DNA from: Paraphysoderma sedebokerense
Taxonomy: Eukaryota; Blastocladiomycota; Physodermatomycetes; Physodermatales; Physodermataceae
DNA length: 64,000 nucleotides
Direction of reading: 5' to 3'
NCBI GenBank assembly: GCA_025602915.1
Contig: JAHLJZ010000024.1
Location: 62,001-126,000 of the forward strand
The notes below the pieces were generated by a model. It did no database searches. It was not told the DNA's origin and was given only the letters and a program-made list of their open reading frames with translations. The stretch's first letter is position 1. The number at the start of each line of letters is the position of its first letter. The translations under genes and the position numbers were made by a program. Below, one piece after another: positions 4,285 through 14,906 of the stretch.

Positions 4285-7200
4285 ATGAGCGATCAGGATG
4301 ACTATTCGACTGTCTTTGACGCATTCATTAAAATTTCAGACCTTGTCATCGTTCTGTCGTACTTTGCGATCCCACTGTTAGTGTTCTACCTTATTACGGA
4401 AATGCTTAGGCTGATCACATTGCTAATCATCATCTTTATCCTTGTTTACCAGACACATTTTCTATGTCACCAAATTTTTACCCAAGCGGTTCCCTTACAT
4501 GAAGCTTATATATCTATTCGTGACGTTTACGACTTGGTGGTATGTATTCCTTCTTTCTGTCGATGCATCCGGGAATTCGGACCGTTACCGTCGCTCGCCA
4601 TACATCGGGCCTGGTGCACTTATAACCGCGAACGGCTTCTCTCATTCCTAATATCTATTCTAATGATCTGTTTGTAGTGGAATTACGCATTTAACAGGGA
4701 TTTTGTTCAATTATGAACCGACAAATGTCGTCGTCAGTTCCAAAGTCATCACGTTAGTATTCTTCCATTGGTCGAGATACTCGGTAGAGGAGGGAGGAAC
4801 TAAATCAATTGCATTTAGTGCTATCATTTCCGTTGCCTTCACGATTGTCATGTTGAAAATAATGCCGAAGGCCTTTTCTTTGTCGTATCGAGTCATCTCA
4901 TTGGAAGAGGAATTAGACACCACAATGAGAAACGAGGAGAATTTGATGGTGTTGAATGGAAATTTGCATCATGTACGGTTTGCAAACGCATCTTCTTTCA
5001 TATTCATGAGTTCCTTGCAATATGTGATTCCTTGCCAAGAAAGAATGACCTCTATTAATCTGTTTAATACACTTTTTTTTAGTTGCGCCAACTTACACAT
5101 CGAATTCGCCGTTCATTAAAAGTGAAAGATGTCTGCGATGCAAGCTGCACCGAATTGTGCCATAGAATAACCTGTATCGACGAAGTCATGATGTTTCTCC
5201 AACGAGACGAGACTTCTGAAATCGTTGCAAAGAGCTGTCAGTCAGACGAACCTTGTGCGGAATATTCCTTAGCGATCCCATCTGACCACCCGCTGCTGCA
5301 ACGATGCAAGGCCGAACATCGATTGAAATTATCAAGGCGTGATTTAGAAGATATTCTTAGCGGCTTTTCTGGAGAAATTCCTGAATCTGGATTATTGCTA
5401 TATCTGGAACTTCAACGAATCGATGCTTTCGTGTTGCTGTGTTCTGCAGTTCCTGGGTATGTGAAGATAAATTTTGTATGAAACCTTTAAAATCTGTTTC
5501 CTAAACGCAATGTAACTTATCCAGATGGACGATAACGGAGCGAGATAGTGTATTTTTAGAAGATGCGTCAGAACAGATTAAGATTGCACTGCAGCAAGCC
5601 CTTGACCTGGAGAACGAGACGATTAGATTGCAACAGCTTGCAGAACAATACGAGCGATGTTCGGAACTGGAGAAAGCGAAAGAGGTATAACAGCTCTATC
5701 GACGTCATGCATACTTTTTTTTAAACTTTTGGTTAATGAAATTCTCTTATTAGGAAGCCGAAGCTTTAGTGAAAATAAAAGGAGAGTTCCTTGCAACGAT
5801 TTCACATGAATTGGTATGTCTCTGTTATTCTACTATGCATCATTAATTGACTAATGATTAATGTATAATTTATACAGAGAACACGTATGTCCTTTCGCTA
5901 CTCCCACATAATAATCAATATGCGGGGCCTAACGAACTTTATCTAATCATTTTATTAGCGATGAACGCTATTATTGGATTCGTGGATCTACTTCTTGTTT
6001 CGACTTTAACCGCCGAGCAGCGGGAAACTTTAGAGATCGTTGAGCAAAGCTCATGCACTTTGCTCAACCTCCTCAACAATTTACTGGACGTTAAGAAGCT
6101 TGAATTCTATGGTGATCAATTCCAACTCGATGAAACTGTGATATCAATTCGTGAAGTTCTCGAACACGCAGTGGACTTGCTTTACGCTTCCGCTGAAACC
6201 AAAGGGTTACAGCTTAATTACTTCGCCGACGATACATTGCCGGAGCAAATCATAGGCGACAAAACACGGCTTCGACAGGTTTTGGTGAACTTCTTATCCA
6301 ACGGTATAATTTCATTCAAAACTCTTGTTATTGCATAGATCCGTGTGTTGACTTTGATTTCTTAGCCATCAAATTTACTGAAAATGGCGAAGTTTCTATT
6401 TCTGTTAGCACCAAAGAGCCCCCATTACCATCATCGAAAGAATATCCTATATGCCGATTTTTGGATTATAGCCAACCCACATCATCCGCTAAAGACGCAT
6501 TGGGACCGCAGCAAACTATTTATATTCAAGTCGTAGATACTGGAATTGGGGTACCAGAAGATTCTATTCTGTCTTTATTCCAAAAATTCAAGCAGGTGGA
6601 CTCTAGCTTTTCAAGAAGGTACCATGGAACTGGCCTGGGACTTGCCATTTGTTCTAAAGTTCGTACCAAGTTTCTAGCGTCTTGCCTCACTTATTGGCTG
6701 TATACTAAAAATTAACTCCTTTCATAAAGCTCATACAATTGCATAAAGGGAAAATATGGGTCCAATCAAAGTATGTGCATCGACTTTTTCTCGGATTCGC
6801 TCCACAATCTTTTAACTCGGTTTTTTTTTTTGCGTTAGACCCGGAAAAGGAACTATCTTTACGGTTGCTATGAATTTCAAGCTAACGACATATGATGAAG
6901 CTATACGTCCTGCCAAGGAATATTCTCTTATCAAAAGCCACCTTCCTCGAGATATTATAGTAGTAGTTGATAATTTCGAAACGTCGCGTAAAGCGATTGC
7001 GCAGTTAGTCGATCTATGTAACGGCAATGCACTTACATTTGAGACTTGTGCCGAAGCGTTTACCCATATCAAGACTTCTAGTACGAAACCTGTTGCAATT
7101 ATCGTAGATGAAGAATCACTGTTACAATCGCAGACCGACATCACGTTTGCAAAACAGTTAGCTCAATTATCATCATTTATCTTGATCCAGAAGTCTATCT

Positions 7201-8031
7201 CCTTCCATGAAGACATCAATTATAGTCCGCTTTTGGGGAAGAAGTACTATCGCCACGTTCTCCATAAACCGCTGAAGAAGTCAGTCTTGAGACGTGTCCT
7301 CGGAGAAGCGATTGTGCCTGGTAAATCTCCGGAAGACTCATCGATTCTTGCCGCCCTCCAAACTCAGCCGGAGCGAGATTTGTGTTCGGCACATTCTACT
7401 TTCAAGCACGGAATTTTGGATCGCATAAAATATTCCAAGATATTGTGTGTGGATGATAATCCTACGAATAGATTGATAGCGTTGAAGTTACTCCAATATT
7501 TTGGATTTCAAAACACTATATTGGCAGAAACTGGACTTGAAGCAACCAGGATAGTGGCGGAACAACAAATTGATATTCTTTTAATGGACATAAGTACGTG
7601 TTCTTGACTCATCTGATACTGCTCTCACAATGACTATCTCTGAGATTAATTTAACCACTTCTTTCGCTTCAAATAGATATGCCTGGAATGTCTGGTAGGT
7701 TTACTTTCTGTCATTGCTTGACATATCAATCTTTCTAATCATGTTCATCTAGGAATCGACGCAACGGATGTGATTCGTCGTCAAAGTAATGGTCAAAGTC
7801 CATATATCGTTGCGATGACTGCTTCTGTGATGATGGAAGAGCGTGAAATTTGTCTTCAACACGGGTAAGTAAAGCCGCAGTTATTGTTTCAAAAAATTGA
7901 TTTTGACGATACTAACTGTATTCCCATTTATCAGCATGAACGATTTCCTTCCCAAACCTATCAATAGAGAAAGTTTGTTCGCGGTGTTGAAACGGTATCT
8001 TCAATATGCCGTGCAGAAAGCTGAAGATTAA
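4285..8031 (+). CDS. Ethylene-receptor-like hybrid histidine kinase (ETR-type sensor)
   Basis: Membrane sensor kinase laid out like plant ETR1. From the ATG at 4285, residues 1-110 give three membrane helices with ISDLVIVLSYFAIPL (ETR1: ISDFFIAIAYFSIPL) and, joined across the intron 4540-4677, WCGITHL (ETR1: LCGATHL). Asp19, Tyr26, Ile29, Pro30, Cys60 and His64 align with ETR1 Asp25, Tyr32, Ile35, Pro36 and the copper ligands Cys65 and His69. ETR1 Ile62 is Thr here. Next come LRQLTHRIRRSLKVKD and a GAF-like region, a coiled coil, the H box (FLATISHELRTPMNAIIGF), N box (NFLSNAIKFTENG), G1 (VVDTGIGVPED) and G2 (HGTGLGLAI). A degenerate receiver (about 6950-7310) lacks the phospho-Asp signature. 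A full receiver follows with CVDDNPTNR, LLMDINMPGMSG, the MTAS Thr/Ser region and the conserved Lys in FLPKP. All catalytic motifs look intact. About thirteen exons, two of them micro-exons. Ethylene binding is inferred, not shown. Confidence 0.92.
4453..4752 (+). other. Copper-ligand helix of the ethylene-binding module, split by an intron
   Basis: Exon 4453-4539 encodes HIFYVTKFLPKRFPY...FTTW and ends with TG. After the intron 4540-4677 (GTATGT...TTTGTAG) the next exon begins T-GGA-ATT-ACG-CAT. The join makes the Cys codon of CGITHL, so the proposed copper-ligand Cys60 exists only in the spliced message. An upstream intron at 4377-4452 (GTTAGT...ACCAG) joins IPL to HIFYV and reproduces the ETR1 spacing between IPL and FPY within one residue. 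Confidence 0.85.
5878..5884 (+). other. 7-nt micro-exon inside the H box
   Basis: The H box is split over three exons: ...ATSHEL-type residues end at 5813, AGAACAC lies at 5878-5884, and CG-ATG-AAC resumes at 5959. Introns 5814-5877 (GTATGT...ATACAG) and 5885-5958 (GTATGT...TTATTAG) are canonical. Joining restores ISHELRTPMNAIIGF without a gap. Skipping the micro-exon would shift the frame. Confidence 0.88.
7677..7694 (+). other. 18-nt micro-exon at the receiver phospho-Asp loop
   Basis: The exon before ends LLMDI-A just before a GTACGT donor. The 18 nt at 7677-7694, flanked by AAATAG and GTAGGT, plus the next exon starting GAATCGACGC, give MDINMPGMSGIDATD, the standard receiver loop after the phospho-accepting Asp. 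Confidence 0.85.
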
Positions 8032-8712: not shown

Positions 8713-10026
8713 CTAAGATGCTGCTGATCTGGGCAAATTTAGTAAATAAGTCGACCTATCCTCTAAGTAGTTTTCGCATTCCCTGCGAAGTACGTGGCGT
8801 TCATTTATAGGGTCTACTCTTTCACGTTTGACAGAGCTCTCTCTGTAGTGAAGTGCAATCGTGTTTATAACACTGTTGTAACGACGGATCAAATGGGCGA
8901 GAAAGTGGTAGTAGATGTTGGGATGGTCCCAGACAGTGTACAATCCTACGGCTGATGATTGGGGAATAAAGGAAGAGGACGCAGGAGAGTTGGAAGGTTT
9001 TGATGGTTCAAAAGTATGAATTCGGGATTTCAGTTTTGTTTGAATATGAGATTTAATGATATCGTAAGGTGGCCGATTGATTGGTGACCCCTGGGCGGCA
9101 AATAAAGAATTGTATCTGAATTCCAATTTCTGAATCAAATTGTCGATGTGTGCTAGCCGACATGTCGATGTCGTCGTGAGGCGGCTATGAGTTGGGTCTG
9201 CTCTTTGCAGAGATTGAGGCGAAATATAACCAGAAGAACTCGCGAAGACGAGGTCAAGAGGGTATTGTGCTCTCGCAAACATTGAGTCACACATTTGCTT
9301 GTGAGACATGGTTGCTGAACAAAGGGAACACAGATCGGATAGTTTATCAATATTGAAAATCAGGAGAGATAATGTATCAGCATCTAGCGGGCTACGGCGA
9401 GCTTCAGTTGATTCTGTTGACGTTGAGGGATTCAGATGGGGTAGCCTATCGAACGCTACCGACGCTTCTGCTGAGATTTGGATAGTATTTACAGATTTGA
9501 CATTAACCAAATTATGGTGATAATGAGACATAACCAACAAGTATTTTCCTGATCGCAAGAAAGATGGAGGGGTAAAAGTCAGCTTATATTCGGTATTTTC
9601 TGATATAATCAACAATTGTTGAAGTAGAATGGTCCCCACGCGAACACGTTTAGGGATCCGCAAAAAATCTGCCAGGATTCCGACATGATGGATCAATGAT
9701 GGCGGTTCTATCCTATCCAGATCTACAGTAAAAGTCATCTCTTGAACTGGCATAGAGGCGGTACGGAAAATCAGAGACACAGGGTCGGAGGGATTCCATT
9801 TTGATGAGGATAATATGGCTTCCGAAATTAATGGAGTTGACCATTGGCAAAATACATTGGCATGGCAGAATCCTTTATTTTCTTTGTATAGTTCGAACAG
9901 CGATCGAGCATTGGGTTCTATGCTACGATGGGTTAATGATACCGAATTTGTTGGCGAGACGAGCGTTATAGTGAATACAGCGACGACACATAAGCTCACG
10001 ATGCAACGGCAAAATGAAAAATACAT
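8713..10026 (-). CDS. Unrecognised secreted protein, tandem paralogue 1 (C-terminally shortened)
   Basis: One long exon. The start is set at MYFSFCRCIV because the second copy begins there; an ATG 15 codons upstream is not conserved. A signal peptide (SLCVVAVFTITLVSPTNSV) is followed by about 400 residues without a domain I know. Visible landmarks are GFCHANVFCQW near the N-terminus, LSDLCSLCSA, a conserved STCRLAHIDN segment, HPNIYYHFLAHLIRRY, and an acidic/basic tail ending NLPRSAAS. It is roughly 60-70% identical to the copy 4.5 kb away on the same strand, but nearly identical over its first 70 codons. Compared with that copy it stops early and loses a final exon. Function unknown; a lineage-specific secreted or surface protein is the simplest guess. 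Confidence 0.75.
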   Translation of the reverse strand: MYFSFCRCIVSLCVVAVFTITLVSPTNSVSLTHRSIEPNARSLFELYKENKGFCHANVFCQWSTPLISEAILSSSKWNPSDPVSLIFRTASMPVQEMTFTVDLDRIEPPSLIHHVGILADFLRIPKRVRVGTILLQQLLIISENTEYKLTFTPPSFLRSGKYLLVMSHYHHNLVNVKSVNTIQISAEASVAFDRLPHLNPSTSTESTEARRSPLDADTLSLLIFNIDKLSDLCSLCSATMSHKQMCDSMFARAQYPLDLVFASSSGYISPQSLQRADPTHSRLTTTSTCRLAHIDNLIQKLEFRYNSLFAAQGSPINRPPYDIIKSHIQTKLKSRIHTFEPSKPSNSPASSSFIPQSSAVGLYTVWDHPNIYYHFLAHLIRRYNSVINTIALHYRESSVKRERVDPINERHVLRRECENYLEDRSTYLLNLPRSAAS

Positions 10027-10640
10027 AGTAGAAAGGGCGGGACAGATGATGTTACAGAAAAGTTGTTGCAAGAGGACCTGTCTGTCGGCCAGCTGGGCTA
10101 AAGAAAAAAGAGACCAATGGCAATGGGACTTATCATATCCATCCCTGTGATTTCCAAACTCAGGAGCGAAACGACATATCTGCGATCAATACGGTGTGAA
10201 GACGGGGTAGGACGCTGAAACGATTCGTTTTGCGAGCACGGATGAACGTTAAGCCGAGCTGAACCGGGTCCCTTTCACGTTTCACTTTGCAGGCCAGGGC
10301 AAAACGACCTAATCATCATCTACCGGTCCCCTTGGCGAAGTTTATTTTCGTAGATCTCCATTCTTCCATACAATTCCTATGCGACATGTAAGGAGAAACG
10401 ATTTTTCTAACTATGCGTAGACGAATCAAGCTTTTGCCGTTTACATGCCACTTCGGTGTACTTGGACCATTAGAGACCAGATCGTACCTTGTTGACACCT
10501 CAAATCCAACAAACGAGAAAAGCTAACCATGACTTTGGAAAGCACTTTTCGTTTACCATGCAATAAGTGGACGCAATCGGATAATCGATGGTTGATGAGA
10601 CTAAAATGTATCTTCTTATTGTATTCGATCTACCATCCCT
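10027..10640 (-). promoter_or_regulatory. Duplicated upstream region of paralogue 1
   Basis: The first 250-300 nt upstream of the start match the upstream region of the other copy (14505-14760) in blocks: GACCAATGGCA, then GAAACGATTCGTTTTGCGAG, then a ...CGTTT...GCCAGG... block. The tandem duplication therefore carried its promoter. The remainder (about 10320-10640) shows nothing recognisable. Confidence 0.6.
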
Positions 10641-12924: not shown

Positions 12925-14504
12925 CTACCATTCCCAAATCCACATTAAAGCTCTAACCCGATTGCTCGCTGATCTAACGAAGAAATCATCGAAAGTTTGA
13001 AACAGATTACCAGTGGATTTATATTGAATCGTCAATCCTTCAACACTACAAAAAATGTGGGATTTAATAGTGTCAGACCAATTTGAAAGAAACAATAGGG
13101 CACCAAATGCTAAAGATACTCACAACTCAAAACCGAATACGTCGACTGAATCAATTACGATCTGTTTCACGACTGACATTGTAGCTTTCACCTTAAATTC
13201 TATCGTTTTCGGCAAATTCACTAAATAAACTGCTCTATCTTCCAAGTAATCTTCGCATTCCTTGCGAAGCACATGCTCTTTTGTAATTGGGTCCACTTTT
13301 TCAATTGTAAATGGGATCTGCCGGTATTGAGCTGCCATTATGTCAATGATACTGTTGTAGCGACGGATCAAATGGGCGAGAAAATGATAGTAGATGTTGG
13401 GATGGAACCAGACATTGTATAATGCTAGGTGTGATGATTGGAGGATTAACGATGGGGATTTAGGGAGTTTGGAGCCTTCGCTGATTTGGGACTTGGATCA
13501 GGATATTTTAGTTTCGATTGAATATGTGATTTATGACTATCATACGGAGAAGGTTTGATTGGGTACCCCTGGGCAGCAAATATCGAAGAATACTTATATT
13601 CCAATTTTCGAATCATATTATCAATATGTGCAAGCCGACATGTCGATGTCGTCGTGAGACGGCCATGAGATCGATCGGCGTCTAGTAGAGCCGAAGGCGC
13701 AATATGATCATAATACTCAGTGAAGACGAGATCAGAAGGGTATTGCACGCTAGAAAAAGTTGTGTCACAAATTCGCTGCTGGGACTCGGACGCCGAGCAA
13801 AGGGAGCATAGATCGGCAAGGTTGTCAATATTGGAGATTACGAGAGGCAATGTATCAACATCCAGTCGGCTAACAGAAATTCCGGTTGGATCCGTTGGTG
13901 ATGAGAGGATTACACTGGGCAGCCGATCAAACGCGAACGACGCTTCTGCAGAGATTTGGACAGTCTTTGCAATGTCGCCGTGAAACCACCTTCGACCAGA
14001 TCGATGCTGAGACATAACTAATAGGTATTTTCCTGATTGCAAGAATGAAGGAGGCGTAAAAGTAAGCGTGTATTCACTAGATTCTGATATAATTAACTTT
14101 CGTATAATTGTCGCTACGTGAACATGTTTAGGGATCCGCAAAATCGCTGCCGGGAGTTCGACCGGATGTATCAGCGGTCGCGGTTCTATCCTATACAGAT
14201 CTACATTATAGGATACCTTTTCAACAGGCAGAGAAGCGGTACGGAAAATGAGAGATACGGAGTCGGAAGGATTCCATTTTGATGAGGAGAGTATGGCTTC
14301 CGAAATTAATGGAGTTGACCATTGGCAAAATACATTGGCATGGCAGAATCCTTTATTTTCTTTGTATAGTTCGAACAGCGATCGAGCATTGGGTTCTATG
14401 CTACGATGGGTTAATGATACCGAATTTGTTGGCGAGACGAGCGTTATAGTGAATACAGCGACGACACATGAGCTCACAATGCAACGGCAAAATGAAAAAT
14501 ACAT
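12925..14504 (-). pseudogene. Unrecognised secreted protein, tandem paralogue 2 (frame disrupted near 13.45 kb)
   Basis: Second copy of the secreted family. It opens MYFSFCRCIV with the same signal peptide and GFCHANVFCQW, then LADLCSLCSA and STCRLAHIDN. The first frame ends about 13446 (SLNPHR-stop). The homologous continuation (SLILQSSHLALYN, then HPNIYYHFLAHLIRRY and the DYLEDRAVYLVNLPK tail) is in another frame, and I see no intron that joins them. The 3' part keeps a second exon: donor GTGAGTATC near 13125, acceptor TTTTTGTAG, last exon starting VEGLTIQYKS and ending RALMWIWEW-stop at 12925. Either this is a young pseudogene or the assembly has an indel. Copy 1 is damaged in a different place, so the ancestral protein of about 470-490 residues can be inferred from neither copy alone. 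Confidence 0.65.
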
Positions 14505-14906
14505 ATTCGAAGGATGAGACGGGCGAATGCCCCAAACGACTTGTTGTAAAAGGACTTATCTGTTGGTCAACTGATGTCGAGAAAACAAATGACCAATGGC
14601 AGTTGCTTCCCTCCAATTTTCAGGTTTGAAGATGTGGCAGGAAAAATGATGAAACGATTCGTTTTGCGAGCGTTATCGCAAGCGCAACGCGTTCCTTTAC
14701 GTTTTTCTTTATCCGCCAGGCCCAAACGAACCCCCGAAGTATATTTCGTAAACCTCCACTCTTCAGTTGGCTATTCTAAATATGAAATTACATTTACAAT
14801 TTATATGTATGAGTATACTATACTACGAACCCAGCATTCCTTAACATGCATAAAACGGTGACGAATTCATCCGAAGACACCATAGACAGGGGCCCAGCAA
14901 CAGCAT
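14505..14906 (-). promoter_or_regulatory. Upstream region of paralogue 2 and 3' flank of the PPR gene
   Basis: Homologous in blocks to the region upstream of paralogue 1 (GACCAATGGCA; GAAACGATTCGTTTTGCGAG). The open frame 14574-14861 on the plus strand has no support. Confidence 0.5.

Follow-up and report, generated by a model that had tools for sequence, protein, structure and literature searches.

The 64,000-nucleotide stretch of contig JAHLJZ010000024.1 from Paraphysoderma sedebokerense that was analysed here (the window) carries a complete gene for an ETR1-type hybrid histidine kinase, one of two sister genes of this type in the genome. The putative ethylene-binding module of the encoded protein has a threonine, Thr57, at the position of Ile62 of the Arabidopsis receptor ETR1, while the sister copy on contig C16 is canonical at this site. 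These two features go beyond the first-pass annotation of this DNA, which had been made from the letters alone and had described the gene as a complete ethylene-receptor-like kinase, using a list of residues that did not include Ile62. We lean, with slightly better than even confidence, towards the view that the window copy senses ethylene through copper in an altered, perhaps weakened, manner and passes the signal into a phosphorelay. The chief value of the analysis lies in the natural pair, in which one copy is canonical and the other is altered at a residue reported to be essential in plants; it offers a clean test of the role of Ile62 and of whether this parasite of algae perceives ethylene.

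The gene model was derived from the reading frames and splice signals between 4285 and 8031, where 15 exons joined over 14 GT-AG introns of 58-138 bases yield 889 codons with zero internal stops. The start, the stop and the introns at 4377-4452 and 4540-4677 are exactly those of the first-pass annotation, and the second of these introns interrupts the Cys60 codon. In a search of public proteins, the spliced product was 100% identical to the deposited BKA69DRAFT_1124702 (P0001; 889 amino acids) of P. sedebokerense (Fungi, Blastocladiomycota, Physodermatales). Since the deposited protein and the window apparently belong to one assembly, this identity confirms the splicing model, but not expression. 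The shared origin is also the one point in favour of an artefact, be it wrong splicing, a pseudogene or a contaminant contig. Such an explanation is very improbable in view of the regular introns, the open 889-codon frame, the intron positions that are common to the C16 copy, and the position of the protein in a clade with other Blastocladiomycota. On the strength of the open frame, the identical deposited protein and the common introns, a pseudogene or artefact was rejected, and the observation of a complete gene stands.

A profile search with the joined protein bears out the proposed identity of the N-terminus. ETR1_N (PF25487) matched residues 16-105 with 62.8 bits against a curated cut-off of 27 (E-value 3.7e-17), which is far beyond chance level. 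Another three-helix family was rejected for this region, where ETR1_N was the only Pfam family to match at E≤0.001. Further downstream, Pfam placed HisKA at 323-385 (1.1e-17), HATPase_c with its best stretch at 500-574 (5.8e-26) and a receiver at 764-876 (1.6e-26). The kinase and receiver motifs are intact, as had been claimed: the H box with His332, the N box, and the G1, F and G2 boxes are present, as are Asp-Asp-Asn 768-770, Asp813, Thr843 and Lys865 of the receiver. Between kinase and receiver lies a receiver-like region (598-722) that had no Pfam match over a cut-off; the C16 copy has this region as well, with 48 of 125 identical columns. An AlphaFold2 model based on a 46-protein alignment (mean pLDDT 85.2, pTM 0.61) predicts helices at 9-37, 47-69 and 76-146. 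Then come an alpha/beta region at 150-257 and the kinase, and after these a fold resembling a receiver (602-721) and the receiver proper; the N-terminus thus has three predicted transmembrane helices. The GAF-like part of the first-pass annotation fared less well. Pfam gave no GAF match in the tested piece at E-values up to 1, the sole match being to an unrelated family (0.12), and the predicted alpha/beta fold and a PDB sequence match of this piece to the sensor kinase 6ozb (2.2e-4; fold not given) are compatible with a GAF domain but no more than that. Among the best 60 of 265 PDB sequence matches, 4pl9 ('Ethylene receptor 1', 1.4e-17, query 392-575) and 4mt8 ('Ethylene response sensor 1', 1e-13, query 298-385) both match the kinase part, and both ranked under other kinases. 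The top Foldseek match in the PDB was the hybrid kinase ShkA (1.2e-25).

The residues of the putative ethylene site were examined in a main alignment of 68 rows, which comprised 67 of the 70 distinct proteins found (without P0006, P0010 and P0011) and the spliced C16 protein; the C16 copy is therefore represented twice, and 50 rows carry our own label 'bact', with unchecked taxonomy. A chytrid query returned one further protein, P0071, which has no ETR1_N match and was left out. ETR1 itself is outside the alignment, and its numbering was transferred by spacing and published residue numbers. The window protein has Asp19, Tyr26, Ile29, Pro30, Phe56, Thr57, Cys60 and His64 at the ETR1 sites, and Lys82 is kept as well. 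The ETR1 copper-site trio Asp25/Cys65/His69 corresponds to Asp19/Cys60/His64, and Tyr32/Ile35/Pro36 to Tyr26/Ile29/Pro30. The first-pass annotation had thus placed D19, Y26, P30, C60 and H64 correctly. The spacing given there as that of ETR1 differs by one residue: Pro and Cys are 30 residues apart in the window protein, compared to 29 in ETR1 (65-36). Six of the seven ETR1 residues which we take to be required as one set, each described individually as required or copper-binding, are present; Wang et al. 2006 is said to be the source of this seven-residue requirement. In passages of published papers, Asp25, Cys65 and His69 are described as the copper site of ETR1 (PMC12643061), I35, P36 and I62 are counted with those that, in addition to C65 and H69, are essential to the binding of ethylene (PMC6586836), Y32A, F61A, I62A, C65Y and H69A are reported to diminish binding (PMC8879215), and seven residues are given as required (PMC11819568). 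Ile62 is not named in the passages of PMC3611092 or PMC3485614.

Several observations weigh against ethylene sensing by the window copy. Ile62 is reported to be required, but Thr57 takes its place and no other of the 68 rows has Thr in this column (Ile 62, Val 3, Met 1, Phe 1, Thr 1). When P0063, P0069 and P0070, misfit rows without a listed ETR1_N domain, are set aside, the 65 remaining rows have Ile 61, Thr 1, Met 1, Phe 1 and Val 1, and the column was marked as nearly invariant in a separate 46-row alignment too. Likewise, Phe92 is the sole Phe in a column with Thr in 63 of the 68 rows. The ETR1_N score is the lowest among the five complete fungal N-termini scanned (the others scored 81.0, 83.6, 86.8 and 87.0 bits). 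The alignment holds no land-plant receptor, and the best 50 of 1467 Foldseek matches are kinases and photoreceptors, with no ethylene receptor named, a result that is uninformative on the sensor. Because of Thr57, we do not file the window protein as a proven ethylene receptor. The designation in the first-pass annotation is upheld for the family by descent, with ethylene sensing as a putative function.

The sister gene was found in a genome-wide profile search, which returned pieces of ETR1_N at two places, the window gene and contig C16; the unspliced pieces scored under the cut-off because exons split the domain. The C16 gene is a second full-length ETR1-type kinase gene (C16:166372-170329; L005:973-4930), and its product shares the architecture of the window protein. 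When spliced, it has 16 exons and encodes 989 amino acids without a stop, and its N-terminus scores 81.0 bits for ETR1_N. It is identical to the window protein in 433 of 964 columns and keeps all seven residues, including Ile at the ETR1 Ile62 site. All 14 introns of the window gene recur in it at the same column and phase, and one extra intron, apparently GC-AG, lies in the receiver. The deposited C16 protein, P0012 (BKA69DRAFT_239319; 940 amino acids), starts at the beginning of helix 2. As exons for helix 1 exist in the genome, the deposited model misses this helix, and our splicing corrects it by revealing the hidden first helix. No third copy was seen in the genome searches, which were done exon by exon and could miss divergent copies.

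A tree built from 62 rows joins the window copy to the C16 copy as its sister (support 100/99) and places both beside the copies of Sorochytrium and Catenaria (97/93), within one clade of 15 fungal rows plus Chara (100/98), in line with a shared ancestry with the fungal and Chara ethylene-receptor homologs. This tree leaves out P0007, P0008, P0012, P0063, P0069 and P0070 and has no land-plant row, and Chara and Neoconidiobolus form long branches in it. Homologs were found in Blastocladiella, Sorochytrium, Allomyces and Catenaria. Judged by splicing, Pfam and the tree, the gene is by descent an ETR1-type hybrid kinase of the kind to be expected in Blastocladiomycota, which agrees with its earlier description as a complete kinase of this type from an early-diverging fungus, here of a flagellated phylum.

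The two sisters have not changed at equal rates. With Sorochytrium as outgroup, the changes unique to the window copy and to the C16 copy numbered 21 versus 5 in the ethylene domain (p = 0.0025) and 21 versus 6 in the receiver (p = 0.006), compared to 21 versus 18 in the kinase core (p = 0.75). The window sensor was faster with all four outgroups (p-values of 0.0025 to 0.011) and so was the receiver (0.0043 to 0.041), while the linker and GAF-like region was faster with two of the four (0.008 and 0.036) and the receiver-like region showed no rate difference at p<0.05 with any of them. It should be noted that these are 28 uncorrected tests (7 regions times 4 outgroups) with outgroups that are not independent, and that the contrast between sensor and kinase is modest (Fisher p-value of 0.035). 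The tests show faster change in the window copy, but not its cause.

Taken together, Thr57 and the faster-changing sensor and receiver suggest that the chemistry of the site is kept, and that the affinity for ethylene may be altered, perhaps lowered, with the canonical role left to the C16 copy. An ethylene-receptor function in some form is likely. A serious competitor, to which we assign clearly less weight, is that the window copy no longer binds ethylene and serves as an ethylene-insensitive or retuned partner, which may respond to a different ligand or to the redox or copper state and perhaps pairs with the C16 protein in heterodimers. This would fit both the asymmetric sensor changes and Thr57. 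The latter is unlikely to stem from a single base-call error, as its codon ACG is two base changes away from every Ile codon. Thr93, at the position of ETR1 Ala102, equals the substitution of the ethylene-insensitive allele etr1-2, but this coincidence is weak because the column is variable (Ala 40, Val 13, Ser 11, Thr 2, Gly 1 and Lys 1 in the 68 rows). Against a loss of binding stand the retention of Cys60, His64, Asp19, Tyr26, Ile29, Pro30 and Lys82, and the fact that Thr is beta-branched, as is Ile. Moreover, departures from the seven-residue set are not unique. There are 65 rows in which every one of the seven sites has a letter. The full set is retained in 52 of these, and the other 13 are the window protein, P0019 from Allomyces arbusculus and 11 rows with a bacterial label; these 11 are all changed at Asp25 or Pro36, some of them elsewhere as well. 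Change at these sites therefore occurs in nature, and the singular part is Thr at Ile62.

Conversely, the window copy could be an ordinary fungal ethylene receptor in which Thr57 is tolerated, and hence one more homolog of a list published in 2017. The homologs in four related genera, two of them already published for the same phylum (PMC5285503), speak for this, as does the ethylene binding reported for Agaricus kinases with an incomplete residue set (PMC9603746). Nevertheless, we regard it as improbable. Besides the singular Thr and the asymmetric divergence from C16, only the window protein and P0019 depart among the 16 non-bacterial rows that have no gap at any of the seven sites. P0019 appears to be misspliced: its Ser at the Cys65 column is due to an inserted stretch that resembles an unspliced intron in the deposited model. 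As to the origin of the pair, a possible but rather unlikely scenario is that, after a duplication in the Paraphysoderma lineage, the C16 copy stayed canonical while the window sensor was remodelled at a binding residue and its kinase kept, giving an altered-affinity or ethylene-blind partner and a tuned pair in an algal parasite.

If altered copper-dependent sensing is assumed, the window kinase would work as a dimer in an internal membrane. A RAN1-type copper ATPase would supply Cu(I) to Cys60 and His64, positioned by Asp19, and ethylene or another small olefin would alter helix 3 and the linker helix, and hence the kinase. Phosphate would then pass from His332 to Asp813, on to an HPt protein and finally to a response regulator. 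The same genome contains candidates for some of these steps. A copper P-type ATPase on C45 exceeds its family cut-off, and we infer that it may take the role described for RAN1 in the literature. A borderline Hpt match lies on C80 (24.6 bits with neighbours against a cut-off of 24.6). An RTE1-family match (PF05608) was detected at C37:163214-163878 with 40 bits against a cut-off of 29.4. Passages of PMC4334170 state that ETR1 signalling in Arabidopsis is promoted by RTE1 and that homologs of RTE1 are prevalent in higher eukaryotes, so that this match is suggestive only. EIN3 had no match in the genome, but the control genomes were equally silent, so that its absence is not shown. P. sedebokerense is described as infecting the green alga Haematococcus, and the role in host finding put forward in the first-pass annotation is speculation. 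The passages of two papers on this species contain no mention of a histidine kinase or receptor (PMC9123766) or of ethylene (PMC11797010).

Fungal genes of this class are already known, since Herivaux et al. 2017 (PMC5285503) reported ethylene receptor homologs in Rhizophagus, Conidiobolus, Catenaria, Gonapodya, Basidiobolus, Spizellomyces, Allomyces and Rozella, two of these genera being Blastocladiomycota. This agrees with the first-pass statement that such receptors occur in early-diverging fungi; P. sedebokerense is absent from Table 1 of that paper. Like the window copy, those homologs combine a three-helix ethylene-binding domain with a hybrid kinase. In the passages concerned, they are reported to have all crucial residues (two sequences being outside the alignment of that paper), in contrast to Thr57 here. 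The further statement that Dikarya lack such receptors needs a caveat, as two hybrid kinases of Agaricus bisporus, AbETR1 and AbETR2, are reported to bind ethylene in yeast (PMC9603746). They belong to fungal groups II and VI and have two of three essential residues, and the putative binding domain of AbETR1 contains five transmembrane regions. This suggests that binding may tolerate change. Arabidopsis ETR1 (subfamily 1) shares with the window copy the three helices, the kinase, one receiver and six residue equivalents. The window copy differs from it by Thr57, by the extra receiver-like region before the receiver, by a GAF part that Pfam does not recognise, and by a loop from helix 1 to helix 2 that is one residue longer. 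The same domain occurs in the bacterial proteins AzoEtr1 of Azospirillum and SynEtr1 of Synechocystis, for which passages describe ethylene binding as shown (PMC11819568); AzoEtr1 has 525 amino acids, PAS and kinase parts and all seven residues (PMC11819568), whereas SynEtr1 has a phytochrome-like domain (PMC6508509). Other passages report saturable binding to a specific receptor for Rhizophagus irregularis (PMC11819568), binding activity with no named receptor for Rhizopus stolonifer and Neurospora crassa (PMC9603746), a Blastocladiella expressed sequence tag resembling ETR2, noted in 2006 (PMC1550239), and, in a review, receptors across algae, amoebae, diatoms and fungi (PMC6944256).

Table 1. 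Features of the ETR1-type kinase gene, in window coordinates.
Feature	Position	Strand	Basis
Whole gene, ETR1-type hybrid histidine kinase BKA69DRAFT_1124702, 15 exons, 889 amino acids	4285..8031	+	splice model, identical deposited protein
Exon 1: start codon, helix 1, Asp19, Tyr26, Ile29, Pro30	4285..4376	+	splice model, alignment
ETR1_N (PF25487), residues 16-105, across exons 1-4	4330..4879	+	Pfam
Exon 2: most of helix 2, bases 1-2 of Cys60 codon	4453..4539	+	splice model, intron comparison
Codon 57, ACG (Thr), ETR1 Ile62 position	4529..4531	+	alignment, codon inspection
Exon 3: base 3 of Cys60 codon, His64 (4688-4690), Lys82	4678..4752	+	splice model, alignment
Exon 4: helix 3, beginning of long linker helix, Phe92, Pro101	4819..4972	+	splice model, alignment, structure model
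Exon 5: alpha/beta region, consistent with GAF fold	5083..5456	+	splice model, Pfam, PDB search, structure model
Exon 6: signalling helix 3' of alpha/beta region	5525..5684	+	splice model, structure model
Exon 7: H box, phospho-acceptor His332 (5805-5807)	5754..5813	+	splice model, motifs
Exon 8: 7-base micro-exon within H box (SHELRTP), position common to C16 copy	5878..5884	+	splice model, intron comparison
Exon 9: remainder of HisKA, beginning of N box	5959..6303	+	splice model, Pfam, motifs
Exon 10: end of N box, G1, F and G2 boxes	6366..6658	+	splice model, motifs
Exon 11: HATPase_c	6730..6770	+	splice model, Pfam
Exon 12: end of HATPase_c, receiver-like region, beginning of receiver, phospho-acceptor Asp813 (7587-7589)	6839..7593	+	splice model, Pfam, motifs, structure model
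Receiver-like region, residues 598-722, within exon 12	6942-7316	+	structure model; no Pfam match over cut-off
Exon 13: 18 bases, receiver	7677..7694	+	splice model
Exon 14: receiver, Thr843	7753..7864	+	splice model, motifs
Exon 15: receiver, Lys865, stop	7935..8031	+	splice model, motifs

Elsewhere in the genome, matches to CHASE, the cytokinin-receptor type of sensor domain, were seen on C68, C53, C34, C30, C32 and C27, three of them close together on C68, and HisKA matches lie near CHASE matches on the same strand on C68, C53, C34 and C30. Four consecutive HisKA matches on one strand at C101:27199-43383 perhaps represent a tandem array of histidine kinases. Within the window, ten other frames had no Pfam link to ethylene or phosphorelay. 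Pfam matched neither of two neighbouring frames on the minus strand, 8713-10185 and 13446-14555; they have a hydrophobic stretch close to the N-terminus, are 67% identical over 352 columns and resemble a local duplication.

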